Made by a program: the position numbers and the translations under genes
In this document: positions 388-30,625 of the stretch, in pieces
Layout of the letters: every line of letters starts with the position of its first letter
How positions within the stretch are numbered: the first letter of the stretch is position 1
The notes under the pieces: generated by a model
Seen by the model: the letters and a program-made list of their open reading frames with translations, nothing else
Database searches by the model: none
What the model was told of the DNA's origin: nothing
From: Anaerolineae bacterium
Lineage (GTDB): Bacteria; Chloroflexota; Anaerolineae; B4-G1
Length of the DNA: 39,824 nucleotides
Assembly (NCBI GenBank): GCA_026418995.1
Contig: JAOAAG010000237.1
Span: 1-39,824, forward strand
Direction: 5' to 3'

Positions 388-3300
388 ATGTTTCACAACT
401 TTACAAAGCGATTGGGGGTCTACGTACTGTTCGCAGGAGTGATCGGGATACTGACAGGCGGGTATGACCTCCTCCATGCCCCAGCCGCTGCTCTCGCTAA
501 AACCGGTGGGAAACCGTCAGTTACTGATGCAACCTCAAGCACGTATGCACCGCAGGCGTGCACAACCTCGGTCTCCGGCAATATCACCGCTCCGGTCACA
601 TGGACGCCAGCCGGCAGCCCCTACTGCGTCACCGCCGACCTCTATGTTCGGCCCGGTGGCGCGTTGACCATTCAAGCCGGTGTCCAGGTGCAGGTCTCTG
701 ACAATATGTGGATCAGAGTGCAAGGCGGCGCGTTGAATGTTCAGGGCGCGCCGGGCAATCCCGTCGTGTTCACCGCGGCTTCCAACCGTTGGCGTTACCT
801 GTCCGTCGAGAGCGGCAGTGCGCAGATGACGCACTGCGTCATCGAAAAAGCAGGGCTTGTATCCACCGAAGCTGCGCTGCGCCTGTTCGTCAGTGATGTT
901 CAGGTGCAAAACTGTACGGTGCGCAACAACGGCGGACATGGCATCGAGCTGGGCGGCGAAGGTTCGACGATGCTTTTGGAGAACGTGGCGGTGACGGACA
1001 ATGCCGGCCGCGCGGTGTTCCAGAACACCATCAACATGAACCCCACCTACCGCAATGTGATGTTGAGCGGCAATGGTCTCAATGCAGTTATCCTGCCCCC
1101 CGGCACGCTGAACCGCGACGTGACCCTCGATAGCACCGGCATCACCGGCGGGCCTCTGCTCCTGGATTATGACCTTTATGTACCAGTCAGCACCACCTTG
1201 ACCCTGCTCCCCGGCACCACCCTGACGGTGGATAATGACAACGTCTGGGTGCGGGTGCAGGGCGGCGCACTGGTGGCGGAAGGCACAGCCGAAAAGCCCA
1301 TCACCTTGACCGTCAATCTGGTGGATGGTTCCAGTCGCTGGCGCTATCTGTCCATCGAGGCGAACAGCCGCGCCCGGCTGGACTATGTCACCCTGGAGCA
1401 TGCCGGCCTCTACAGCAACGAGGCCGGTCTGTATATTCAGACTTCTGACGTGCAGATGCGCCATAGCGTCGTGCGCGCTAACGCCGGCCCCGGCATCGTG
1501 CTTAGCGGCGAGGGGATCACCCCGACCTTGGAAAGTGTGCTTGTGACCGGCAACGGCGGTTTCGCCATCAAGCAGAATACGGTCAACATGAATCCCATCT
1601 ACCGCGACGTGACGCTGACTGGCAACGGAACGGATGCCGTGTACCTGCCCACCGGCGCGCTGAACCGCGACGTGACCTTGGATGGCGTGGGAATCGGGGG
1701 CAAGCCCTTTATCCTGGATTACGATCTCTATGTGCCGGTCAGCACCACCTTGACGTTGCGCCCCGGCACAACCTTCGCCTTCGACCTCGACAACGTCTGG
1801 TTGCGCGTGACGGGCGGCACGCTGGTAGCGGAAGGCACGGCCACGCAGCCCATCACCTTCACGGCTGCTTATACGACGCCCAGGCCGGGCCTGTATCGCA
1901 TGATTGCCATTGATTCGGGCGCGGCGCGTTTTGATCATTGCGCGATCAACTCGGCGGGATTATACGGTTCTCCGGCGCTCCTGGTCGGGTCGGTCAACCA
2001 GGTGACGGTGCGGAACTGTCGCGTCTACGGTAACAGCGGCGACGGGATGCAGGTGAGTAACAACACCGGCGCCGTCATCCTGGAAAACTCGGCCTTCTTC
2101 AGCAACACCAACGGCCTGCGGCTGAACAACGCCGGGTCGGTGACGAGCGCGAACTGCACTTTCCAGAACAACAGCAGCTACGGCGTCTTGCAGAATTCCA
2201 ACGATACTTTGAGCTACGTAGATAACGTCTTTAGCGGCAATGGGGTGGCAGGCGTAGGCATCAACGGCGGCACGCGCCTCGCGCCTATGACGCTCGGCCC
2301 GTCTGGAAATTCCTTCCGCGTGTTGGGTGACGTCACCGTCGGGCCGACCGCGACGTTGACGATTCAACCCGGCGTGCGGGTGGATTTTGCGCAGTACAAG
2401 GGGCTGGTGGTGGAAGGAACGCTGAACGCCGCCGGCTCGGCCACCCAGCCGATTACGTTCACCGGCACGGCGGAGACAAGCGATTGGTGGTGGGGGATCA
2501 TCGTGCGCAACGCCGGCTCGGCCACCCTGGAGCACGCGACCGTGGCCTACGCGGGATATTGGTCGGATAATACTGGCGTGCTCAAGTCGGGCAGCGGCAG
2601 CCTGATCCTGCGGAATTCCACCATCCGCAACAACGGCGGCGCGGGGCTGCGCATCCTCAACAGCACCGGCTACCACATTCTCACCGGCAACGTCTTCTGG
2701 GCCAACAGTGTGGGCGTGTTGGTGCAAGATACAACGCAGAGCGTGGCGCTGAGTGGCAATGTGTTCGCCGGCAACACCGACTTCGGCGTGCGCAACCTGA
2801 ACTCTGCTACCGTGTACGCCCGCCAGAACTACTGGGGCGACGCCAGCGGGCCAACCCACGCCACGCTCAACCCTGCCGGCACGGGCGACAAGGTGAGTGA
2901 CAATGTGGTCTTCGATCCGTGGTTGACGGCGCTGCCGGAGGGCGGGCAAATGGTGGGCGACCTGTTGTTCACGACCCGGGCGCCTGCCTTCATCAGCCCG
3001 GGCCAAACGGTGGACTATGCCATCCAATATATGAACCTGTTGACCGACACGGTGCGCAACGCGCTGGTGGTGGTGCAGTTGCCGGCGGCGGGCGACCTGG
3101 TGTCGGTCAGCGACGGCGGCATATACTGGCGCGAACGGGATCAGCTTTTCTGGAAACTGGGCGACCTGCCGTCGGGCAGTGCCGGCACGCTCTCCTTCCA
3201 GGTGCGCTTCCTGTGGGGCTTGCAGCGCAACTACAGCGACAGCACCATCACCATTTTCACCGCGGATAATTACAATCCCGGCGAACTGGACAGGCAGCCT

Positions 3301-5292
3301 TATTTCGACTATCAGCCCGTCACAATCAACACAGTGACGCCACTGACACAGGCGCAATTCGACGCGCAACTGGCCGCCTCGCCTGCCCTGCAAGCCGCTT
3401 ACGACGCAGCGCTGGCAGCCGGTTACGCCTATCACAGCGCGGCCAACGTCACCCGCAGCGATGGCGCGACTGTGCTCGGCGCGGTGCTGGTCAACACGGC
3501 CCGCCGCGCCGCCCGCATCCTTACCCTGTACAATAACCAGGTGCTCGTCTACACGATCAACGCCGGCGAATTCATCGTGGAAGACAGCAGCGGCGGTATG
3601 CGCATGGATCTCCTCACCCGCACGACCGGCGAATGGGGCGCGTGGGCATACAATCCTGCCATCAGCGCACTCTCCATGGCCGCCGATGGCTGCACGGTCA
3701 ACGCCTGCAAGCGGAACTGTCGCACGAAGATCGTCAGTTGGGAGTTCGTCACCAAGAAAAGCGCGCGCATCGTCGGTTGGACGGCGTTATCGTTCTTCAG
3801 CGGCGGTGGCGGCCTGCTCGGCGCGGCCTATGAAGTCTGGGATACGGTCAGCACGGCCAAAGAATTCCTCTACGATTGCCGGGTGAACTGCGAGGCCGAC
3901 CCATCCACCCATTGCTGCACGGCCGGTCAGGTGCGTTACAGCGGCGGCTTTATCGGGGGGATGACCAACAGTTGTTACCGCGAGAGATGCAACGCCGCCG
4001 TCGGCATGTGGGTGCCTGACGGCTACCAGACCTGCATCGCCTATGGACAGCGCTGCGTCGCCGGCGTTGGCGCGGGGGCCGGCTGCGTGAATTGCGAAGA
4101 GCGCCTGAACGCGCAGCGCGCGCAGGTGCAGGCGATCACCGTATCGGCTCCAGAAGCCGCGCAGCCACAGGGGTGCAGCGCAACCGCCGCCGGCGGCAAG
4201 CCACGCTGCCGCGACCTGAAGAACATCCAGGCAAAGGACCCCAACGCCCTCTACGGGCCGGCGGGCGACCTGCTGCCCGGCCAGACCGTCGTTTACACCA
4301 TCACCTACGAGAACGAGGGGGCGGGCCGCGCCTACGGCGTCTACGTGACCAACCCGCTGCCCGATGTCTTTGATGCAGCCACGCTCAACCTGCACGGCAA
4401 CGGCATCTACATAGCAGCCAGCCGTGAGATGATGTGGTACGTCGGCGAATTGGGGCCGAAAGGCGCTCCCGATTCCAGAGGCGCCATCACTTACACCGTC
4501 ACGCTCAAAAACAGCTTGCCCTCGGGCACGGTGGTGAGCAATCAGGCCACCGTCTATTTCCCCTCCGTGCCGGAGGAGACGCCCACCAATGCCTGGGTGA
4601 ACGTCGTTGCGCCCCTGGCGGCCATGCCGCAGGAACTGACCACCGCCTACATGACGCCGCTCGCCATCACGCTGAGCGGCCGCGAGATCAGCGGATTGCC
4701 GTTGACCTACGAGATCGTTGATGCGCCTTATGGCGGTATCCTGAGCGGCACCCTGCCCAACCTCATCTACACACCGGCGGAGAACTTTACCGGCCCGGAT
4801 GCCTTCGCCTTCCGTGTGAGCAACGGCGTCACCACTAGCCGCGCCGCGCAGGTCTATATCACGGTAACGCCGGTGGGGGATACAACGCCGCCGCAGGTGG
4901 TGTGGACCGACCCAGTCAGCGGGACAAAGGACATCACCGTCAATGCGACGCCCGTCTTTACCGACGCGCTTGGCCCACTCTACGCGCCAGTTATTCTGAT
5001 TGGCGTCTCCGAGCCGCTCAGTGAAACCACCGTCACGACCAGCACGGTCGTCCTGCGACTCGTGGGCGGCGCAACATTGACTGCCAAGGTCACGTTCGAC
5101 CCGTCCGGCAACTGGATCATACTACAACCGCGCGTGCCGTTGATGACCGGCGACTATGAAGTGCTGGTGACCACTGCCATCGCCGACCGCGCCGCCAACT
5201 ATCTGGTCGCGCCATACCTGTTTCGTTTCAGTACTGTAGCGCCGGTCGCGAGGTATTACATCTACTTGCCGCTTGTGCTGCGGCAATCGTAA
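388..5292 (+). CDS. Large secreted right-handed parallel beta-helix repeat protein with DUF11-like and Ig-like C-terminal domains
   Basis: Signal-peptide-like N-terminus; repeated NNGGxGI/LxLxN-type helix coils; DUF11-like segments (PGQTVVYTITYENEG...LPSGTVVSNQATV); cadherin/Ig-like tail; C-terminal YYIYLPLVLRQS. Confidence 0.85.
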   Translation: MFHNFTKRLGVYVLFAGVIGILTGGYDLLHAPAAALAKTGGKPSVTDATSSTYAPQACTTSVSGNITAPVTWTPAGSPYCVTADLYVRPGGALTIQAGVQVQVSDNMWIRVQGGALNVQGAPGNPVVFTAASNRWRYLSVESGSAQMTHCVIEKAGLVSTEAALRLFVSDVQVQNCTVRNNGGHGIELGGEGSTMLLENVAVTDNAGRAVFQNTINMNPTYRNVMLSGNGLNAVILPPGTLNRDVTLDSTGITGGPLLLDYDLYVPVSTTLTLLPGTTLTVDNDNVWVRVQGGALVAEGTAEKPITLTVNLVDGSSRWRYLSIEANSRARLDYVTLEHAGLYSNEAGLYIQTSDVQMRHSVVRANAGPGIVLSGEGITPTLESVLVTGNGGFAIKQNTVNMNPIYRDVTLTGNGTDAVYLPTGALNRDVTLDGVGIGGKPFILDYDLYVPVSTTLTLRPGTTFAFDLDNVWLRVTGGTLVAEGTATQPITFTAAYTTPRPGLYRMIAIDSGAARFDHCAINSAGLYGSPALLVGSVNQVTVRNCRVYGNSGDGMQVSNNTGAVILENSAFFSNTNGLRLNNAGSVTSANCTFQNNSSYGVLQNSNDTLSYVDNVFSGNGVAGVGINGGTRLAPMTLGPSGNSFRVLGDVTVGPTATLTIQPGVRVDFAQYKGLVVEGTLNAAGSATQPITFTGTAETSDWWWGIIVRNAGSATLEHATVAYAGYWSDNTGVLKSGSGSLILRNSTIRNNGGAGLRILNSTGYHILTGNVFWANSVGVLVQDTTQSVALSGNVFAGNTDFGVRNLNSATVYARQNYWGDASGPTHATLNPAGTGDKVSDNVVFDPWLTALPEGGQMVGDLLFTTRAPAFISPGQTVDYAIQYMNLLTDTVRNALVVVQLPAAGDLVSVSDGGIYWRERDQLFWKLGDLPSGSAGTLSFQVRFLWGLQRNYSDSTITIFTADNYNPGELDRQPYFDYQPVTINTVTPLTQAQFDAQLAASPALQAAYDAALAAGYAYHSAANVTRSDGATVLGAVLVNTARRAARILTLYNNQVLVYTINAGEFIVEDSSGGMRMDLLTRTTGEWGAWAYNPAISALSMAADGCTVNACKRNCRTKIVSWEFVTKKSARIVGWTALSFFSGGGGLLGAAYEVWDTVSTAKEFLYDCRVNCEADPSTHCCTAGQVRYSGGFIGGMTNSCYRERCNAAVGMWVPDGYQTCIAYGQRCVAGVGAGAGCVNCEERLNAQRAQVQAITVSAPEAAQPQGCSATAAGGKPRCRDLKNIQAKDPNALYGPAGDLLPGQTVVYTITYENEGAGRAYGVYVTNPLPDVFDAATLNLHGNGIYIAASREMMWYVGELGPKGAPDSRGAITYTVTLKNSLPSGTVVSNQATVYFPSVPEETPTNAWVNVVAPLAAMPQELTTAYMTPLAITLSGREISGLPLTYEIVDAPYGGILSGTLPNLIYTPAENFTGPDAFAFRVSNGVTTSRAAQVYITVTPVGDTTPPQVVWTDPVSGTKDITVNATPVFTDALGPLYAPVILIGVSEPLSETTVTTSTVVLRLVGGATLTAKVTFDPSGNWIILQPRVPLMTGDYEVLVTTAIADRAANYLVAPYLFRFSTVAPVARYYIYLPLVLRQS

Positions 5293-6520: not shown

Positions 6521-7201
6521 ATGGAAAGAAAAGCACAATGGATTGACTACCTGGTTGCGGTGCTGGTACTTGGTTCGCTTTGGGGCTTCGCCGAGGTCGT
6601 GCTGGGGGGTGCAATGAAGATAGCCAAGGTGCCGTACCGGTCTGGTATCCTGACCGGCCTTGGAGTGGGACTGATGGCCCTCGCTGTCGGGGCCTTCAGA
6701 AGGCCCGCGTTGTTGCCAGGTATGGCGTTGGTGGCTGCCTGTTGCAAGCAACTGGTGGTACCCATTCTGCGCGTCTCTTTTATGTGCAAGGCCAATTCCT
6801 GCCTGGCAGTTCTGCTGGACGGCGTGGCCCTGTGCGGAGTCGTGGCGCTGGCTGGACGGTGGCTGGATAAGAGCTATCCGACCAGAGTAGCGAGTGGGGC
6901 GTCGGCAGCGTTGTTGGCAGCAGTGGGCTTTTACCTGATAGGTATGCGGTTAGCGCCCTGCCAGTATCTCCTCTCGTTTAATCGTCCCGGCGGTCTGCTG
7001 GCCTTCCTCGGTGCTGAGGGCCTGGTATGGATGATCTTCTCGGCCATCTTCTTCCCCGTTGGCTATGCGGTGGGCAGAAAGGCCGGCGATGTCATCCCCG
7101 CCTGGAGGGTAGGCAGGGCATCGCTGTATTATGCTCTCGCTGCGGCTATTGTAGCGTTTAGCTGGCTGGCGAGCGCGCTGGCCATCGCCAACGGGATTTA
7201 G
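6521..7201 (+). CDS. Conserved polytopic membrane protein (possible transporter component)
   Basis: 226-aa ORF with multiple hydrophobic segments; RBS-like AAGGAGG upstream. Confidence 0.7.
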   Translation: MERKAQWIDYLVAVLVLGSLWGFAEVVLGGAMKIAKVPYRSGILTGLGVGLMALAVGAFRRPALLPGMALVAACCKQLVVPILRVSFMCKANSCLAVLLDGVALCGVVALAGRWLDKSYPTRVASGASAALLAAVGFYLIGMRLAPCQYLLSFNRPGGLLAFLGAEGLVWMIFSAIFFPVGYAVGRKAGDVIPAWRVGRASLYYALAAAIVAFSWLASALAIANGI

Positions 7202-7220
7202 AGTAAGTTGAGGGCTGCCT

Positions 7221-7529
7221 ATGAAGGTCGAGATATCTTCACCCTGGGCCAGGGAGTTTATCCGCAAGCACGGTGGTGTGATCAACATCGCCTGGCGCAC
7301 TGTCTGCATGGACTGATGAACCATCTTCGAGGGCCCATCCGGTCGGATGGGAAAGCCAGATCATCCGGAGGAGTTCGTCTGCTTCCAGGCAGAGGATATA
7401 ACTGTTTATATCTCCAAGCCATTCTTGCGCGGAAAAGTGAAACCAGGGACACGGGAGATCTATTTCTACATTGACGGTTACGGACGTCATACACTCGCCT
7501 TGGACCCTCCATACGAGGGCGAGGCATGA
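7221..7529 (+). CDS. Candidate HesB-like CC/Se-motif selenoprotein read through tandem in-frame TGA-TGA (7314-7319)
   Basis: MKVEISSPWAREFIRKHGGVINIAWRTVCMD-[TGA TGA]-TIFEGPSGRMGKPDHPEEFVCFQAEDITVYISKPFLRGKVKPGTREIYFYIDGYGRHTLALDPPYEGEA in one frame; CCCATCC-GGTC-GGATGGG hairpin at 7334-7351. Confidence 0.65.
7334..7351 (+). promoter_or_regulatory. Bacterial SECIS-like hairpin, GGTC apical loop
   Basis: Perfect 7-bp stem CCCATCC/GGATGGG with GGTC loop starting 21 nt after the second TGA. Confidence 0.65.
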
Positions 7530-7564
7530 GCCGTGGTATACTTTGTTGAGTTGAAAGGAGAAAT

Positions 7565-7843
7565 ATGCCAACCGAACAGGAGGTTATCGAGGCGCTGCGC
7601 CCGGTGATGGACCCCGAGCTGGGAATGAGTGTGGTGGACCTGGGAATGATCCGGGAGGTTAACGTCGAAGGGGATACGGTCGAGATTAAAATGGTGTTGA
7701 CCGTGCCATTTTGTCCGCTGGCGGGCCTGATCACCAGGCAAGTGCAGAACGCCGCGGCAGCCCTACCAGGCGTCAAAGAGGCCAAGGTGACGCTGCTACA
7801 GGAGCCGTGGAACCCTGGCTGGATAAGCGGACAGCAGCGATAG
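7565..7843 (+). CDS. DUF59/MIP18-family Fe-S assembly protein (SufT/PaaD-like)
   Basis: DPELGMSVVDLGMIREV...TVPFCPLAGLITRQVQNAAAALPGVKEAKVTL matches the DUF59 family pattern. Confidence 0.88.
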   Translation: MPTEQEVIEALRPVMDPELGMSVVDLGMIREVNVEGDTVEIKMVLTVPFCPLAGLITRQVQNAAAALPGVKEAKVTLLQEPWNPGWISGQQR

Positions 7844-7880
7844 CGTCCACCAGGCACGGATGCCTGTGAGTTCCATTGAT

Positions 7881-7899
7881 GGTCACTTCCGAAGTGACC
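7881..7899. repeat. Palindrome GGTCACTTCcGAAGTGACC (member of short dispersed family)
   Basis: Perfect 9-bp arms; related to copies at 19738-19772 and 21147-21181. Confidence 0.8.
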
Positions 7900-7920
7900 G
7901 TCAACTGGGCGCATGGAGTG

Positions 7921-9171
7921 ATGAACGTGGAGGTTGAGCCTTATCCGATGCTGAGCGTGGAAGAGGCCCTGGCGCAGGTATTAGCTGCTTTTGAGCCGCT
8001 GCCGCCGGAGCGCAAACCGATTCTGGAAGCGCTGGGGCAGGTACTGGCTGAGGACATCTTTGCCGGGATGGACATCCCCCCGCTGGCTAATTCGGCGATG
8101 GATGGCTACGCTGTACGCTGCGCAGACACCGCTGAAGCTTCGCCTGAGCATCCCTGCCGCCTCCGTGTCGTGGCAGACCTGGCCGCGGGCTATGTTCTTA
8201 ACGAACCGCTGCAGCCAGGGACTGCCGTGCGCATTATGACGGGGGCCCCCGTGCCCCCCGGCGCCGAGGCGGTAATTCCTTTCGAGGAAATTGAGCGCGA
8301 CGGAGAGGAGATTCTCGTCTCCAGACCCTATCCCTACCACAAAAACATTCGCGCCGCCGGTGAGGATGTTCGTGCCGGGCAGAAGGTACTGCCACGGGGC
8401 ACCGTCCTGCGTCCCCAGGAGATCGGCATGCTCGCCGCGCTGGGGCGAGCGGAGGCGCTGGTACACCGGCGCCCGCGCGTGGCGATTCTCTCCACCGGCG
8501 ACGAGGTGATCGCAGTGGACGCTCCCTGGCAGCCGGGCAAAATCCGCGACGCCAACTCATACTCCAACGCCGCACAGGTGCTGCGCTACGGGGGCGTGCC
8601 GCTCTGCCTGGGCATCGCCCGCGACGACATAGCCGACCTGACGGCGAAAATCCGCACCGGCCTGGAGCAGGGCGCCGACCTGTTCCTCACCTCTGGCGGG
8701 GTCTCGGTGGGCGATTTCGACGTGGTAAAGCAGGTACTGGCTGCCGAGGGTGAGATGGCTTTCTGGCAGGTGCGTATGAAGCCGGGCAAGCCGCTGGCCT
8801 TCGGCCATATCCGGGGAGTGCCGCTCCTGGGCCTGCCGGGCAATCCCGTCTCGGCGATGATCGCCTTCGAGCTGTTTGCCCGCCCGGCCATTCTCAAAAT
8901 GCTGGGCAAGACCCAACTGGAAAAACCCACGGTGGAGGCGGTGCTGCTCGACGAAATCAAGCGCAAGGACAACCGCCGCCATTATCTGCGCGTGAGCCTG
9001 GAGGAGAGGGACGGCCGGTATCATGCGCGGCTGACCGGCGACCAAGGTTCGGGCATCCTGCTCTCGATGGTACTGGCGCAGGGACTGGCGATCATCCCGG
9101 AGGATGTGGACCATCTGCCTGCTGGCTCTCGCGTGCAGGTAATGATGCTCGATTGGCCGGAGCGGGGTTAG
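7921..9171 (+). CDS. moeA: Molybdopterin molybdenumtransferase MoeA
   Basis: DIFAGMDIPPLANSAMDGYAV, MTGAPVPPGAEAVIPFEE, STGDEV, TSGGVSVGDFDVVK, KPLAFG...LPGNPVSAMIAFELFARP motifs. Confidence 0.95.
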   Translation: MNVEVEPYPMLSVEEALAQVLAAFEPLPPERKPILEALGQVLAEDIFAGMDIPPLANSAMDGYAVRCADTAEASPEHPCRLRVVADLAAGYVLNEPLQPGTAVRIMTGAPVPPGAEAVIPFEEIERDGEEILVSRPYPYHKNIRAAGEDVRAGQKVLPRGTVLRPQEIGMLAALGRAEALVHRRPRVAILSTGDEVIAVDAPWQPGKIRDANSYSNAAQVLRYGGVPLCLGIARDDIADLTAKIRTGLEQGADLFLTSGGVSVGDFDVVKQVLAAEGEMAFWQVRMKPGKPLAFGHIRGVPLLGLPGNPVSAMIAFELFARPAILKMLGKTQLEKPTVEAVLLDEIKRKDNRRHYLRVSLEERDGRYHARLTGDQGSGILLSMVLAQGLAIIPEDVDHLPAGSRVQVMMLDWPERG

Positions 9172-9215
9172 GGTTCGGGGTTGGGGACCGGAGGTTCGGG
9201 TCCGGAGGTACATCG

Positions 9216-10814
9216 TTGAGCGAGAAGTGGCGGTTACTGGATACCGGGCCGCGTCCTGCGGCAGAAAACATGGCTCTTGACGAGGTTGTGCTTACGGCGC
9301 GCAGTCGTAACGCGGTGCCGAACACGTTACGTTTCCTCCAGTTTTACCCCCGCTGTACCCTGGTCGGCTACCATCAGGCTGTGGAGCAGGAAATCCGCGT
9401 CTCCTATTGCCAGGAGCACGGCATTGAAATCAACCGGCGGCTCACCGGCGGGGGCGCGCTATTCTGGGACGAGACCCAGTTGGGGTGGGAAATTTTCGCC
9501 TCTAGAGACGATCCCCGTTTCCTCTGCTCTGCCGAGCTACTCTACGAGCGACTGTGCCAGGGCGCGATCAAGGGGCTGGAGAAGCTGGGAGTGCGCGCAG
9601 CGTTCCGCCCCAAGAATGATATCGAAGTGCACGGCCGCAAAATTTCCGGCACCGGTGGGACCAGTATGGAAGGCGCCTTTATGTTCCAGGGCACCCTGTT
9701 GGTGGACTTCGATGTGGATACGATGCTCCGTGCATTGCGTATCCCCACCGAGAAACTGAAGGATAAGGAGATTGCATCGGTGAGGGAGCGGGTTACCTGC
9801 CTGGCGTGGGAGCTGGGCGCGGCGCCCCCTCTACCTCAGATCAAAGCTGCGCTGGTAGCTGGCTTCTCGGAGGTGCTGGGTGTAGAGTTCGAGCAGGCGC
9901 CTTTGACTCCCCTGGAGCAGGAACTGCTGACGAGCCGCCTCCCCTACTTTCGCTCCGAGGAGTGGGTCTACGGCATACGCCGTCCGCTGCTCCACCGTGA
10001 CGAACTGCGGGCGCTCTACAAAAGCCCCGGGGGGCTGATTCGCATCTCGCTGGTGGTGGATAGGCAGGCACGCCGCATCCGTGAGGCGTTCATCACCGGC
10101 GATTTCTTCGCCTACCCCCGCCGCGCCATCCTCGACCTGGAGGCACGGCTCAAGGGAGCCCCCGCCGCAATCGGGGCCGTGGGCCGCATCGTCGAGGAGT
10201 TCTTCGCTAATGAAGAGCTCGAAATGCCCGGCGTCTCCACAGCCGACATGGTGCGCACCCTGCGCGAGGCCCTGGAGAAAAGCACCTACACCCGTTACGG
10301 CATCCGCCCGGATGAGGTGAACTACGTCTTCTCAGTGGTCGAGCCGCTGGCGGAGATCATGGAGCGGCGGCTCGCTCCTGGTCACCGGAACGGACCGCTG
10401 CCCCTCCTCCTTCCGTACTGCGCCAAACTCACCTCGTGCGCCTACCGCTACCGGGAAGGCTGCACTTTGTGCGGTGGATGTTCCATCGGCGCAGCCTTTG
10501 AACTCGCCGAACGATACGGTTTGATACCGATTTCCATCCAGAACTACGAGCACCTTGAGGCGACGCTGGAGCGCCTCAAAGCCTCAGGCCACCCTGCCTT
10601 CATCGGAAGCTGCTGCGAGCCGTTCTATGCCAAACATCGGGATGACTTTGAACGCATCGGATTGCCCGGCATCCTGGTGGATGTAGATAGCTCCACCTGC
10701 TACGACCTGGGCCGTGAACAGGACGCCTACGCCGGCCGGTTCGACAATCAAACATATCTGAAACTGGACCTGCTGGAACGGATTCTGGCGCGGGTCTCCT
10801 CCGCTGCACAGTGA
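9216..10814 (+). CDS. Lipoate-protein ligase (LplA-type) fused to C-terminal DUF116
   Basis: N-terminus: GPRPAAENMALDEVVL, INRRLTGGGALFWDETQLGWEIF, KNDIEVHGRKISGTGG. C-terminus: DUF116-like Cys-rich LPYCAKLTSCAYRYREGCTLCGGCSIG...PAFIGSCCEPFYAKHRDDF. TTG start. Confidence 0.85.
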   Translation: MSEKWRLLDTGPRPAAENMALDEVVLTARSRNAVPNTLRFLQFYPRCTLVGYHQAVEQEIRVSYCQEHGIEINRRLTGGGALFWDETQLGWEIFASRDDPRFLCSAELLYERLCQGAIKGLEKLGVRAAFRPKNDIEVHGRKISGTGGTSMEGAFMFQGTLLVDFDVDTMLRALRIPTEKLKDKEIASVRERVTCLAWELGAAPPLPQIKAALVAGFSEVLGVEFEQAPLTPLEQELLTSRLPYFRSEEWVYGIRRPLLHRDELRALYKSPGGLIRISLVVDRQARRIREAFITGDFFAYPRRAILDLEARLKGAPAAIGAVGRIVEEFFANEELEMPGVSTADMVRTLREALEKSTYTRYGIRPDEVNYVFSVVEPLAEIMERRLAPGHRNGPLPLLLPYCAKLTSCAYRYREGCTLCGGCSIGAAFELAERYGLIPISIQNYEHLEATLERLKASGHPAFIGSCCEPFYAKHRDDFERIGLPGILVDVDSSTCYDLGREQDAYAGRFDNQTYLKLDLLERILARVSSAAQ

Positions 10815-10815
10815 G

Positions 10816-11907
10816 ATGCGGACTCAGGTAGATGTACTGGTGATCGGAGCCGGACCCGCCGGGAGCAGCGCCGCACGCGCTGCTGCCTCTGGTGGGCTGC
10901 GCGTACTGCTGGTCGAGCGCCGGCCTACCGTGGGGCTCCCGGTACAGTGTGCGGAGTACGTGCCGGCCCAGCTTGTGCACTACATCTCTATCCCGGAGCG
11001 CTGCATCGCCCGCCGTGTCCGTGCGATGCACACGCACCTGCCCGATGGCCAGGTCGTGGAAACGCCCGCGTGCGGCTATATGCTCGACCGCGCGCTGTTC
11101 GACAGGGCGCTTGCTGTAGCCGCCTGCCAGGCCGGCGCCGAGCTGTGGACGGCAGCACCGGCCGTAACGGTGCTCCCGGGGGAAAATCTGGCGTATGTGA
11201 GGAGAGGCGGGAGGCTCGAGGAGGTGGGGTATCGCATCCTCATCGGAGCGGATGGCCCGCGCTCCCTGGTGGGGAAGCGCATCGGGCAGGTCAACGCGGA
11301 GTTTGTCCACGCCGTACAGGTAGAAGTAGCGCTGAACGGAGGGCGCGATCACACTGAGGTCTACTTCGATTCCGTTTACCGGGGGGGCTATGGCTGGTTC
11401 TTCCCCAAGGAGAACACGGCCAACGTCGGTGTGGGGGTCAACTGCGGCATGGGAGGTGAGCCACGTCGGGCGCTCGCCCATCTGCTGGAGCGTCTGAACC
11501 TCGGATCGGCGGCCATTGTAGGGCACACCGCTGGCCTCATCCCGGTCGGCGGGGTGGTGGGCCAGATGCGGGTGGGCAATGTGCTGCTGGCCGGGGACGC
11601 GGCAGGACACACCCACCCTATCACCGGCGCGGGCGTCTTCGCCGCTGTCGTGGGGGGGATACTGGCAGGGGAGATGAGCGTCAAGGCGCTCAGGAACGGC
11701 GATCTGGAGCTGCTGGAGGAGTATGAGAGAGAGTGGTCGGCCTTTATGGGAGGGCCGCTGAGGCATGCCCTGAGCAAGCGGTGTTACCGGGACGAGCGCT
11801 GGAGTGACCACCCGGTCGCGTTAAGCCGTCTGATCCGGGAGACATGGGTGGCCTTTCCAGACTATGCGAGACGCACACCAAGTGAGGTGACTCACCCGTG
11901 CAGGTGA
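10816..11907 (+). CDS. Geranylgeranyl-reductase-family FAD-dependent oxidoreductase (LipT-like candidate)
   Basis: DVLVIGAGPAGSSAARAAASGG nucleotide-binding motif, LIGADGPRS, GNVLLAGDAAGHTHPITGAGV. Confidence 0.85.
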   Translation: MRTQVDVLVIGAGPAGSSAARAAASGGLRVLLVERRPTVGLPVQCAEYVPAQLVHYISIPERCIARRVRAMHTHLPDGQVVETPACGYMLDRALFDRALAVAACQAGAELWTAAPAVTVLPGENLAYVRRGGRLEEVGYRILIGADGPRSLVGKRIGQVNAEFVHAVQVEVALNGGRDHTEVYFDSVYRGGYGWFFPKENTANVGVGVNCGMGGEPRRALAHLLERLNLGSAAIVGHTAGLIPVGGVVGQMRVGNVLLAGDAAGHTHPITGAGVFAAVVGGILAGEMSVKALRNGDLELLEEYEREWSAFMGGPLRHALSKRCYRDERWSDHPVALSRLIRETWVAFPDYARRTPSEVTHPCR

Positions 11908-11933
11908 TCGTCATCTGATGTCACGGAGGCACT

Positions 11934-12956
11934 ATGGAAAGTCCTGAGTACGTACAGATCAGCCTGGCGGCTGCGATGGCGCTGGGCTACCGTCCGGCGA
12001 TGTTTCGCCGCAACTCTTATCTGACCGGGCTCAACCTGCTGGTGACGTATCCGGAGGGTTGCGCAGCCCGCTGTGCGTTCTGTGGCCTCAATCATCAGCG
12101 GCGTATCGAGCCGGAAAAGCGCACGTTTATCCGGGTGGACTGGCCTACCTATCCCCTGGATGACGTGATTGCCCGCCTTAACCGCAACGGACACGCATTG
12201 CGCCGTGTCTGCGTGGGCATGATCACTCACCGCCGCGCCTTCGACGACACGGTCGCGATCATCCGCCGCTTCCACGACGCATCCGACCGCCCTATCTCGG
12301 CGCTCATTTCCCCCACGCTACTCGGCGATCTGTCGCGCCTGGCGGAGATCAGGGAGGCCGGTGCAGATATGATCGGCATCGCCATAGACGCCGCCACGCC
12401 GGAGCTGTTCGAGCGCTACCGTGGCCGTGGCGTCCGGGGGCCGCATCGCTGGGCGCACTACTGGGCCGCCGTGGAAGAGGCTGTCCGTGTGATGGGGCCC
12501 TACAAGGTAGGCGTGCACCTGATTGTTGGCCTGGGTGAGACCGAAGAGCAGATGATCGCCACCATTCAGCGCGCGCACGACATGGGGGCCCACACCCATC
12601 TCTTCTCTTTCTTTCCTGAAGCTGGTACTCCGATGGAGCACCATCCGCAGCCGACCTTTGGGCATTACCGGAGGGTGCAACTGGCACGCTACATCATCAA
12701 CAAGGGCTACGGTCGCTATGAGGGGATGCGCTTTAACGCCGCTGGTCAGGTGATAGACTTTGGGCTGGAGACCGAGGAGTTGATCCAGTACGGTGAGCCT
12801 TTTATGACCTCCGGCTGTCCTGGCCCGGATGGCAAAGTGGCCTGCAACCGTCCATTTGGCAACGAGAGGCCAGGCCAGCCCATTCGTAACTACGCCTTTG
12901 AGCCAGAGCCAGAAGACGTGGAGCTGGCTCGCTACCAGTTGCGCGACTACGCCTGA
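11934..12956 (+). CDS. Radical SAM protein (LipS1/LipS2-like candidate)
   Basis: EGCAARCAFCGLN CX3CX2C cluster motif; GVHLIVGLGETEEQM; operon context with LplA. Confidence 0.75.
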   Translation: MESPEYVQISLAAAMALGYRPAMFRRNSYLTGLNLLVTYPEGCAARCAFCGLNHQRRIEPEKRTFIRVDWPTYPLDDVIARLNRNGHALRRVCVGMITHRRAFDDTVAIIRRFHDASDRPISALISPTLLGDLSRLAEIREAGADMIGIAIDAATPELFERYRGRGVRGPHRWAHYWAAVEEAVRVMGPYKVGVHLIVGLGETEEQMIATIQRAHDMGAHTHLFSFFPEAGTPMEHHPQPTFGHYRRVQLARYIINKGYGRYEGMRFNAAGQVIDFGLETEELIQYGEPFMTSGCPGPDGKVACNRPFGNERPGQPIRNYAFEPEPEDVELARYQLRDYA

Positions 12957-13963
12957 TGTCCCCGCGACCCCATCTGGCGCCAGGCGCCTCTGGCGAGGCG
13001 AAACGCCTCTTCAACCTTCCCTGGCCGGAGCTACAGGGAGCGGCCTGGACGGTGCGTCATGCGTACCATCCGCCAGAGCTGCGCTTCGCCGTGCCGGGGG
13101 GCAAAAGGTACGCCACCGAACATTATCGCAACACCCCTTGGCGCTTTGCCAGCATCAGCCTGACCGGGCGACATTGTGATTTGCAGTGCGAACACTGCCG
13201 GGGGCGTATGCTGGCGACGATGCTACCTGCCCTCACTCCCGAGATGCTGGTGCTTCAAGCAGAGCGGCTGCTCGAGCGGGGATGTGCCGGCGTGCTTATC
13301 AGCGGCGGCTGCAACCTCGACGGCGCGGTGCCGATCAAACCGTACCTCTCCGCTATCGCTCGCGTCAGGAGCATGGGGCTGCGCACCATCGTCCATACCG
13401 GCCTGCTGGACCGGGAGACGGCGGAGGGGCTGAAAAACGCGGGTGTGGATCAGGTGCTGCTGGACGTCGTGGGGGACGAAGAGACCATACAACAGGTGCT
13501 CCATCTCACTCATTCGCCTGCTGAGTACGAGGCGACGCTGGCGTTAGCCCGCGCAGCGGGGTTATCGGTTGCACCACATGTGATCGTCGGCCTGCATTGC
13601 GGGGAACTGCGCGGGGAATTGGCTGCGCTGGAGATCATCCGCCGTACAGGAGCTGATGTGGTCGTGATAGTGGTGTTACGCCCGCTGCCGCACACGCCGC
13701 TGGCGCAGGCGCCTGTAATGGCTCCCGACACAGTGGGGCGGCTGGTAGCGGTGGCGCGGCTCCTGTTCCCGGCTGTACCGGTGACCTTGGGCTGCGCCAG
13801 GCCGGCCGGGCCGCTCAAGGCAGAAATGGAGCGGCTGGCAGTACTGGCTGGTATCAACGGCCTGGCCTACCCCGACCCGGCCACTGTAGAGCTGGCCGCA
13901 GGTCTGGGGTTGCGTACCTCATTCGTCGAGAGCTGCTGCACCCTTGCCGTCACCTCCCAGTAG
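12956..13963 (+). CDS. Radical SAM protein (LipS1/LipS2-like candidate)
   Basis: RHCDLQCEHCRGRML CX3CX2C motif; GVLISGGCNLDGAVPI; TGATG overlap with the preceding CDS. Confidence 0.75.
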   Translation: MSPRPHLAPGASGEAKRLFNLPWPELQGAAWTVRHAYHPPELRFAVPGGKRYATEHYRNTPWRFASISLTGRHCDLQCEHCRGRMLATMLPALTPEMLVLQAERLLERGCAGVLISGGCNLDGAVPIKPYLSAIARVRSMGLRTIVHTGLLDRETAEGLKNAGVDQVLLDVVGDEETIQQVLHLTHSPAEYEATLALARAAGLSVAPHVIVGLHCGELRGELAALEIIRRTGADVVVIVVLRPLPHTPLAQAPVMAPDTVGRLVAVARLLFPAVPVTLGCARPAGPLKAEMERLAVLAGINGLAYPDPATVELAAGLGLRTSFVESCCTLAVTSQ

Positions 13964-28597: not shown

Positions 28598-30337
28598 TCA
28601 CCAGAAGACCGCGTCCAACGTCTCGTCGGGCACGTCCCAGACGACGTTGTGCGGCGGGAGCGGCTCATATTTCATGAATTCCGGCACCCGGTCATGCGCC
28701 TTGGTGAAGCCCGCCGCGCGGTTGAAGGCCAGCTCTTTGTCAATAATCTCCTTGCCGATACGGGCCGCATCCTCCGTCCTCCAGTCTGTGCCCAGGACAC
28801 CCGCACACTCCTCCATCAACCCCTCGAAGCCACTGGGGATATCCAGGATAGCAAAGGCGATGAACAGGCAGTGACCGGAGGAGTCAATGAAAGCAGTGGT
28901 GTACTGGAAACCACGGGAGAGGTCCGCCTTATCGGTGGCGAACTGATCCACCTTACCGCTAACGCCCAGAATCTCCGGGGCAATGGTGTAGCCGGCGGTG
29001 TGATCGGCACCCATCGTGGAGGTAGCATATGTGATGCCAATGCCCTTGACGGCACGCGGCTCATAAGCGGGCATGTTCTGGCCCTTGCACGCGGGGACAC
29101 GATGCCAGCCGAAGGCCCGGCCGGTGAAAGCAGCGCCGTTGCCGATGATACGGCCCAGCGGTGTGCCCTTACGGACCTCCTCATCCAGCAGCTTGATGGC
29201 CCCCTGCCAATCACCGAAGGGCATCAGACCCGCATCCATCGCCACTGCGATGGTTCCGCCGGTCTCGATGGTGTCGAGGCCGAGATCGTTGCACAGCCAG
29301 ATCAGCTTGCCAATGGCCTCCAGGTTATCAATGCCGCAGTTGGCTCCCAGCGCCCAGGTGGATTCGTACTCAATGCAGGAGACGATCTCATTCCCCTGCT
29401 CATCGTAGTACGTGTTAGAGCACTGGATGGTACAGCCGGGATGGCAGGCGTGGTTGTAGAGTTCCTTGCCCAGGCGTGCCTTGTTATTCTCGAAAATGGC
29501 CTCGCCGGAGGTCGCTGCCGCGCCCTCAAAACGGCCCTCGCGGAAGTTACGGGTAGGATAACCGCCAGCCTCGTTGAGGATATTGACCAGCACCGCGGTA
29601 CCATAGGTATTCAGGCCGCCCTTGGGCTTGGTGATATCGTGCTGGCGCAGCGCTTCCAGCATCTTCTTGCGCCCCTGGTCAAAGAGCTCGGGGTTGGCGA
29701 TCTCCACGCCTGGCCCTCCCTCGGCATTCACCACCATCAGCTTGAGGCCCTTGGAGCCCATCACAGCACCCAGCCCACCACGACCGGAGTAGCGGCTAGG
29801 CCGACCATGGGCGTCGTTAAAGCACACGCCCGCCATCGCCATACGCATCTCGCCGGCCACACCAATGGAGCAGATATCCGCTTTCTTACCGAAGCGCTCG
29901 AAGAGCAGCGGGTAAACCTCGTAGAGGCTCCGCCCAACGTACTCGTCGGCAGGGAAGAAGGTGGCCCCATCCTTCGTGATATGCAGCCCCCACCAGCCAC
30001 CATCTTTGGGATAGCCCTCTACGATGATCGCCTTGATCCCCAACCTCGCCACCGACTGCGGCCACCCAGAGCCAGCATTGGACTCCTTGATCCCTCCGGT
30101 GAGGGGGGACTTGCCACCCACCGAGACACGGCCAGAGGTGGGCGCATTGGTGCCGGTGATAATGCCCGGAGCGAAAACGAGCTTGTTGTTGGGGCCCAGA
30201 GGGTGGCATAATGGATCCACCTCATCGCAGACCACGGTAGACGTGAGACCACGACCACCAAGCAGACGGTACTTTTCGGGGACATCTTCGTAGGAGATAG
30301 TGCGGTCGGTCATGTTGACGCGCATTATCTTGGGCAT
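28598..30337 (-). CDS. aor: Tungsten-dependent aldehyde ferredoxin oxidoreductase family protein
   Basis: KIMRVNMTDRTISYEDVPEKYRLLGGRGLTS, GRVSVGGKSPLTG, RYSGRGGLGAVMGSKGLKLMVV, ACHPGCTIQCSN, LGLDTIETGGTIA; RBS AGGGAGGTG. Confidence 0.95.
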   Translation of the reverse strand: MPKIMRVNMTDRTISYEDVPEKYRLLGGRGLTSTVVCDEVDPLCHPLGPNNKLVFAPGIITGTNAPTSGRVSVGGKSPLTGGIKESNAGSGWPQSVARLGIKAIIVEGYPKDGGWWGLHITKDGATFFPADEYVGRSLYEVYPLLFERFGKKADICSIGVAGEMRMAMAGVCFNDAHGRPSRYSGRGGLGAVMGSKGLKLMVVNAEGGPGVEIANPELFDQGRKKMLEALRQHDITKPKGGLNTYGTAVLVNILNEAGGYPTRNFREGRFEGAAATSGEAIFENNKARLGKELYNHACHPGCTIQCSNTYYDEQGNEIVSCIEYESTWALGANCGIDNLEAIGKLIWLCNDLGLDTIETGGTIAVAMDAGLMPFGDWQGAIKLLDEEVRKGTPLGRIIGNGAAFTGRAFGWHRVPACKGQNMPAYEPRAVKGIGITYATSTMGADHTAGYTIAPEILGVSGKVDQFATDKADLSRGFQYTTAFIDSSGHCLFIAFAILDIPSGFEGLMEECAGVLGTDWRTEDAARIGKEIIDKELAFNRAAGFTKAHDRVPEFMKYEPLPPHNVVWDVPDETLDAVFW

Positions 30338-30384
30338 GGTACACCTCCCTTTACTGAAACTAGTTGGTACGGTCGGGTGGATAC

Positions 30385-30530
30385 AAAATAAAAAGAGCCA
30401 CCTCTGGCCGGGACAACGCCCCGAACCAGCAAGTGCCTCCTTTGCAAACACGGCGGGCATAGAGATTGCTCTCTATACCTTATCGCTCATCTGTCCCGGT
30501 GGGAGCATGATGAGTCGGAGGGAAGGTATG
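30385..30530 (-). promoter_or_regulatory. Structured 5' leader of the AOR gene with possible antiterminator/terminator switch
   Basis: Minus strand: ATACCTT...AAGGTAT enclosing CTCAT...ATGAG; ATAGAGA-GCAA-TCTCTAT; CTGGttCGGG...CCCGgCCAG; overlapping GCCA-gagg-TGGC followed by TTTTTATTTT. Confidence 0.5.
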
Positions 30531-30625
30531 GGGTTTTTCAACAAGAGTCGGAGGTTTACAAGTACGCAATTATAATATATGCCAGAATCTCCCGCTTGTC
30601 AAGTGCTGGAGAGTGCTGACGCTAT

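Follow-up and report, generated by a model that had tools for sequence, protein, structure and literature searches.

An invariant tandem UGA in Chloroflexota very probably encodes two adjacent selenocysteines in a CC/Se motif protein

A small gene that seems to be broken by a double stop very probably encodes two adjacent selenocysteine (Sec) residues. The gene lies in a stretch of 39,824 nucleotides, which we call the window, from the genome of an Anaerolineae bacterium, a fragmented MAG of 3.85 Mb in 418 contigs with 96% completeness. In the overall explanation that we favor, to which we give a probability of roughly 0.88, both UGA codons are read as Sec, a single hairpin serves them both, and the product is a small dyad protein resembling IscA/HesB. 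The features on which this explanation is built are as follows.

7221 to 7529, forward strand: selenoprotein gene, 102 aa, with a probable Sec32-Sec33 pair, UU subfamily of NF041239 (read-through translation, NF041239 match, TGATGA at 31 of 31 loci)
7314 to 7319, forward strand: tandem UGA UGA, probably read as Sec-Sec (invariant in all homologs; on NF041239 dyad columns 30-31)
7334 to 7351, forward strand: SECIS-like hairpin with a 7-bp stem and a GGUC loop (covariation, base-pair counts, synonymous constraint at codons 38-42, fit to the published bacterial SECIS model)

Translation of the window gives a frame that runs from ATG 7221 to TGA 7527-7529 with TGATGA in frame, and its product, with TGA taken as Sec, is MKVEISSPWAREFIRKHGGVINIAWRTVCMD-U-U-TIFEGPSGRMGKPDHPEEF..., 102 aa in length. 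An earlier sequence-only reading of this DNA had described a tandem in-frame TGA between two short open reading frames of the same frame, and this arrangement is indeed present, with the joined frame giving the 102-aa product. The ten sense codons that it placed between the TGAs and the downstream open reading frame, however, are nine when counted to ATG 7347. Ordinary gene callers would split or lose each member of the UU subfamily, as we term the proteins with the tandem UGA.

The hexamer TGATGA is found at the equivalent site in all 31 homologous loci, which come from 30 Chloroflexota genomes and reach down to ~30% identity. Twelve further genomes of the same order, all from separate assemblies, have the gene with ~49-59% protein identity and both TGAs, and 17 genomes outside the order have it as well (16 from a profile search that covered 397 genomes of the class, and one from a search of the phylum). 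These homologs represent a sampling of Chloroflexota. The patterns used to search genome contigs were derived from that group and therefore matched close Chloroflexota relatives only. The viral contigs and plasmids searched contained no relatives, and a search of the class of genome G011, which consists of one genome, added no locus. The sequence-only reading expected Cys or Sec at these two positions in homologs, and every homolog found keeps TGATGA; at this similarity level, neither CC, CU, nor UC occurs at the dyad among the 31 loci. In a 21-row alignment, the only invariant residues are Sec32, Sec33, Ser40, Gly41, Pro46, Tyr63, and Gly88. Cys29, three residues ahead of the dyad, is not invariant, and the motif is CxxUU in the Thermoflexales loci and in L071, L072, and L075, and xxxUU elsewhere.

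The region beyond the tandem UGA also behaves as coding sequence. Entropy at the three codon positions is 0.99, 0.75, and 1.38 after the TGAs, which matches the values of 1.05, 0.77, and 1.30 before them and thus argues that the downstream region is translated in the same frame. One may argue that a window from a fragmented MAG carries a sequencing or assembly error, or that the gene is a pseudogene, but the same six bases recur in the separately assembled genomes of the order and in those outside it, and the coding constraint persists downstream of the TGAs. Because TGATGA is invariant in 31 loci and the codon variability downstream is coding-like, we reject sequencing error, a pseudogene, and ordinary stops, and the chance of error or gene decay is negligible. 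As far as sequences can tell, there is selection for read-through at TGATGA.

The family to which the protein belongs is identified by the CC/Se motif model NF041239, which is matched at 44.1 bits against a curated cut-off of 40 when UGA is read as a residue, and which is the sole family matched by all 21 aligned relatives (E up to 1). Since a MAFFT alignment of the UU forms with distant RCCGG forms needs compensating gaps to bring the dyads together, the position of the dyad in NF041239 was instead deduced by probing the model with residue substitutions and fragments of the window protein. Substitution by Ala lowers the score by 5.3 bits at U32 and 3.2 bits at U33, and by 0.4 bits at Cys29. 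In addition, a fragment ending at Sec33 extends to model column 31, and one starting at Sec32 begins at column 30. Both probes place the two UGAs on columns 30-31, in agreement with the earlier proposal that the tandem TGA occupies the CC dyad of the family. The window protein resembles the Moorella thermoacetica type of NF041239 in scoring above the curated cut-off and in having both UGAs on the conserved dyad columns. However, the family is listed in a 2026 review as CxxU with a single Sec (PMC13188914), and the UU proteins depart from that motif: there are two Sec codons, both dyad positions are Sec, and the preceding Cys is absent from many members outside the order.

The sequence-only reading had named the family "HesB-like CC/Se". 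The CC/Se half of that name is justified by the NF041239 score, but the HesB-like half finds no match among HesB sequence models and a weak one in fold. The AlphaFold2 model is confident (mean pLDDT 92.9) and shows a single, mostly beta domain, in which a loop joining strands 20-29 and 35-43 carries the dyad. Among its ten best Foldseek matches, nine are of the IscA/SufA/HesB type, though weak (E = 0.022, TM 0.43), and it is in these best matches that the likeness to the HesB-like selenoprotein (TIGR01911, UxGP) and to IscA/SufA/ErpA consists. An hhalign comparison with IscA sets Sec32 opposite IscA Cys35 in an alignment that is not significant (probability 0.5%). In contrast to those proteins, none of 21 UU members matches the HesB-type Pfam family (PF01521), with only scattered weak hits to unrelated families, and no TIGR01911 match is reported for UU members. 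The ligands of the C-terminal CxC cluster are likewise absent, and the C-terminal part, FYIDGYGR..., lacks a conserved Cys. A profile search of PDB chain sequences found no relatives. We regard the predicted fold as weakly IscA/HesB-like.

The hairpin consists of CCCATCC (7334-7340), GGTC (7341-7344), and GGATGGG (7345-7351), so that its stem of 7 bp is perfect, and its loop starts 24 nt past the first UGA and 21 nt past the second. This is the GGTC hairpin at SECIS-like spacing that the sequence-only reading had pointed out. Its minimum free energy of -12.7 kcal/mol is equalled by two of 200 shuffles. The window has 32 TGATGA hexamers, counting both strands, and that at 7314-7319 is the only one with such a hairpin downstream; in base-shuffled windows, a hairpin of this kind follows TGATGA in 0 of 1093 cases. 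It is the core hairpin alone that stands out: a longer stretch of 66 nt folds no better than shuffles, and Rfam at a permissive threshold gives no match within 7100-7600. In E. coli fdhF, too, the SECIS has a GGUC apical loop, and its distance from the UGA is similar. However, fdhF has one UGA and its SECIS is described with a bulged U, whereas the hairpin here has a perfect 7-bp stem and follows two UGAs; its lack of a bulged U is a point against our reading. With either UGA as the reference, the hairpin satisfies each of the four constraints that a published model sets for a bacterial SECIS (PMC13188914).

Conservation of the hairpin can be followed in the ungapped alignment of the 42 nt from TGATGA, in which the stem is paired in 97.8% of cells; sliding the partner by 1-3 columns brings pairing down to 31-51%. 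The covariation score of 0.253, against a shuffled mean of 0.136, is reached by 0 of 500 shuffles, and ten stem cells show compensatory change on both sides. The stem closes with C-G in 16 sequences and with A-U in nine, a switch that accompanies the protein change Arg42 to Leu, and in the 26th sequence (L078 of genome G011) U-A is replaced by G-C together with Ser40 to Ala. Because the protein tree accounts for the C-G/A-U switch with one to three events, to which one U-A to G-C change is added, the independent compensations are few. Moreover, codons in this segment are under synonymous constraint: one codon is used in all sequences for the shared Gly41 (codon identity 1.00 vs 0.31 expected), and identity is 0.93 at Arg42 (0.31 expected), 0.82 at Gly38, and 0.76 at Pro39, whereas the conserved Gly18, Gly19, Pro46, and Gly88 stay near expectation without such constraint. 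Two other loci show different states. The distant Cys-Sec homolog L024 (genome G251), as read from its sequence, has a different hairpin with a GGUC loop 23 nt past its single UGA, and it may represent a step between the CC and UU states. A second UU paralog, L076 (genome G628, ~1045-1284), keeps TGATGA and has lost ~11 hairpin-bearing residues; it may be decaying or using another SECIS.

These data bear on whether the tandem UGA is a real double stop, with a 31-aa open reading frame ending there and a separate 60-aa protein re-initiating at ATG 7347 (ATG or GTG in relatives). Such a restart would agree with the presence of ATG or GTG, both usable starts, at that position in nearly all homologs, but stem pairing accounts for the change from ATG to GTG (U-A to U-G), and the codon is CTG in L078. 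Furthermore, TGATGA and the start codon are exactly 27 nt apart wherever a homolog retains the segment, the nine intervening codons encode a predicted strand and a GPSG motif, the NF041239 alignment spans the join, the AlphaFold2 model forms one domain, and SECIS-type RNA constraint acts on the region. Termination followed by restart is thus very improbable, and we return to read-through of the tandem UGA.

Read-through could still involve only one Sec, with the other UGA decoded as a near-cognate suppression residue or serving selenium-dependent termination for regulation. In favor of a single Sec are the presence of one hairpin for two UGAs, the Cys-Sec dyad of the relative L024, and a Sec recoding efficiency of 30-40% in E. 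coli (PMC4513850). At such an efficiency per UGA, two successive events from one hairpin would be inefficient, with a full-length yield, by our own arithmetic, of ~10-15% if they are independent. According to the present model for E. coli (PMC4513850), the SECIS already carries SelB with Sec-tRNA by the time the ribosome reaches it, so the second UGA would need re-loading within a single elongation step, with the hairpin already at the ribosome. Against a single Sec, TGA is invariant at both positions in all the loci, both positions fall on dyad columns where NF041239 favors Cys, and suppression by another tRNA is not expected to keep TGA at such columns. A single Sec is therefore improbable, and it is highly likely, judging from these comparisons, that Sec is inserted at both positions 32 and 33.

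For double insertion, the GGUC hairpin inside the coding sequence would recruit SelB with Sec-tRNA(Sec) for the first UGA and, after the 3-nt step, would act again for the second. One hairpin might serve both UGAs because its distance from each falls in the 16-37 nt range permitted for a bacterial SECIS. The product would be a small domain made mostly of beta strands and similar to IscA/HesB, and its second strand would lead into the loop that bears Sec-Sec. This dyad would most likely bind a soft metal(loid), for example As(III), or cycle as a diselenide/selenol couple, in the setting of metalloid resistance or of tungsten/molybdenum enzyme maturation. We infer both the double use of the hairpin and the chemistry of the dyad, giving the chemistry about even odds. 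On balance, it seems rather likely that a single bacterial SECIS can work at two UGAs in immediate succession and so produce an obligatory vicinal selenol/diselenide pair, which whole Chloroflexota lineages have kept, often in metalloid-handling operons.

The source genome is that of a Sec-decoding organism. The components that the sequence-only reading had named for a genome check are all there: selA (574 bits), selB (331 bits), selD (364 bits), and selC, as a tRNA-Sec with anticodon UCA (69.8 bits, with ARAGORN in agreement). The selD gene (L018, contig C159) has an in-frame TGA near its N terminus (SAAGUAAK) and is probably a selenoprotein gene itself. In-frame TGAs both here and in selD could be taken to mean that this lineage uses TGA as a sense codon in general. 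However, TGA terminates nine of the 26 window genes, the selA and selB frames run open with no in-frame TGA, and a tRNA-Sec and SECIS-like constraint are present; an alternative genetic code is refuted by these observations and has a vanishingly small probability. Across genomes, selA is above cut-off in 28 of the 30 that have the UU gene, and the remaining two are 76-77% complete, one of them containing a fragment of selA. In the sister family f92 of the same order, none of the 24 genomes has the UU gene or a selA above cut-off. Since ten genomes of the order have selA but no UU gene, the latter is not the sole reason for keeping the Sec pathway. The co-occurrence of selA and the UU gene follows phylogeny and is supporting rather than independent evidence.

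What appears to be new, on sequence grounds, is a conserved bacterial Sec-Sec dyad in a known selenoprotein family, apparently served by one SECIS. A table of 119 prokaryotic selenoprotein families and subfamilies contains no Sec-Sec motif (PMC13188914), and we found no bacterial Sec-Sec selenoprotein in the literature, although an unpublished RefSeq annotation is possible. The only Sec-Sec report found is that of the algal PDI_e selenoprotein, whose GUGUU motif led to its being called the first selenoprotein with two consecutive Sec residues (PMC7539508). The UU protein shares this feature with PDI_e, but PDI_e is eukaryotic, of the PDI type, and decoded by means of a eukaryotic SECIS, and we do not claim homology. 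Cys-Sec dyads are known from MbdU (metal-binding double selenoprotein), SaoC, SaoL, and HgcA, whose names are tied to metals or organometals (PMC13188914); they differ from the UU protein in having Cys-Sec rather than Sec-Sec and in belonging to different families. A natural, conserved tandem-UGA gene makes it testable whether one SECIS works twice and how release factor 2 is excluded, and poses the puzzle of a low-yield double recoding kept throughout a lineage. Moreover, a Sec-Sec pair for which reversion to Cys is never seen suggests a job beyond that of Cys-Cys or Cys-Sec.

Two genes flank the selenoprotein gene in the window.

6521 to 7201, forward strand: hydrophobic protein, unannotated, 226 aa, directly upstream (open reading frame; no Pfam family)
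7565 to 7843, forward strand: DUF59/MIP18-type protein, 92 aa, next gene downstream (PF01883, 2.2e-24)

The downstream neighbor had been read as DUF59/SufT, with Fe-S or metal-sulfur chemistry as its implication. It is indeed a DUF59 protein (PF01883, 85.9 bits), but its score is far under every SufT cut-off. DUF59 is not among the families recurrent at other UU loci, and the implied chemistry is less well supported in that DUF59 is local, whereas arsenic/metalloid genes or a tungsten-enzyme maturase recur elsewhere. Neighbor clustering and Pfam at 20 UU loci revealed ArsR regulators, ArsP-type permeases (ArsP_1), Thioredoxin_3, and PF04060 Fe-S proteins at 6-9 loci each, as well as ACR3/SBF-type transporters at three loci and ArsC- and ArsB-like genes at single loci. 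For example, the gene order at L096 is ArsP, thioredoxin, Fe-S protein, UU, SBF/ACR3-type transporter, and ArsR-cluster gene, and the paralog L076 in the same genome has an ACR3-like reading frame downstream of it. At six loci (L080, L082, L084, L086, L093, and L094), a radical SAM gene belonging to a single cluster is adjacent or close to the UU gene. The two that were scored, those at L080 and L082, both surpass the TIGR04317 cut-off (tungsten cofactor oxidoreductase maturase), and these neighbors possibly link the UU gene to tungsten enzymes. The enrichment of all these genes near the UU gene is a judgement. The arsenic operons and the maturase neighbors together offer concrete candidate substrates for the Sec-Sec pair.

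In the window itself, the neighbors are the 226-aa membrane protein, DUF59, MoeA, lipoate ligase, and LipS1/LipS2-like genes, with an AOR-like gene 21 kb off. Because this neighborhood is not of the arsenic type, we give only about even odds to the function that we favor, in which the UU protein would be a vicinal-selenol metal(loid)-handling or redox protein, or an electron donor to such a reaction. At 7876-13963, MoeA-like, lipoate ligase, geranylgeranyl-reductase-like flavoprotein, and LipS2/LipS1-like radical SAM genes stand in a row, the last two with scores just under the LipS cut-offs; this is probably a divergent LipS1/LipS2 lipoate assembly cluster, and it runs in the same direction as the selenoprotein gene. 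The window also encodes a 1634-aa, secreted-looking protein with repeated segments (388-5292) and an aldehyde ferredoxin oxidoreductase-like protein (28598-30532), whose gene has a Mo/W (Moco) riboswitch at its upstream end (Rfam RF01055, 43.3 bits).
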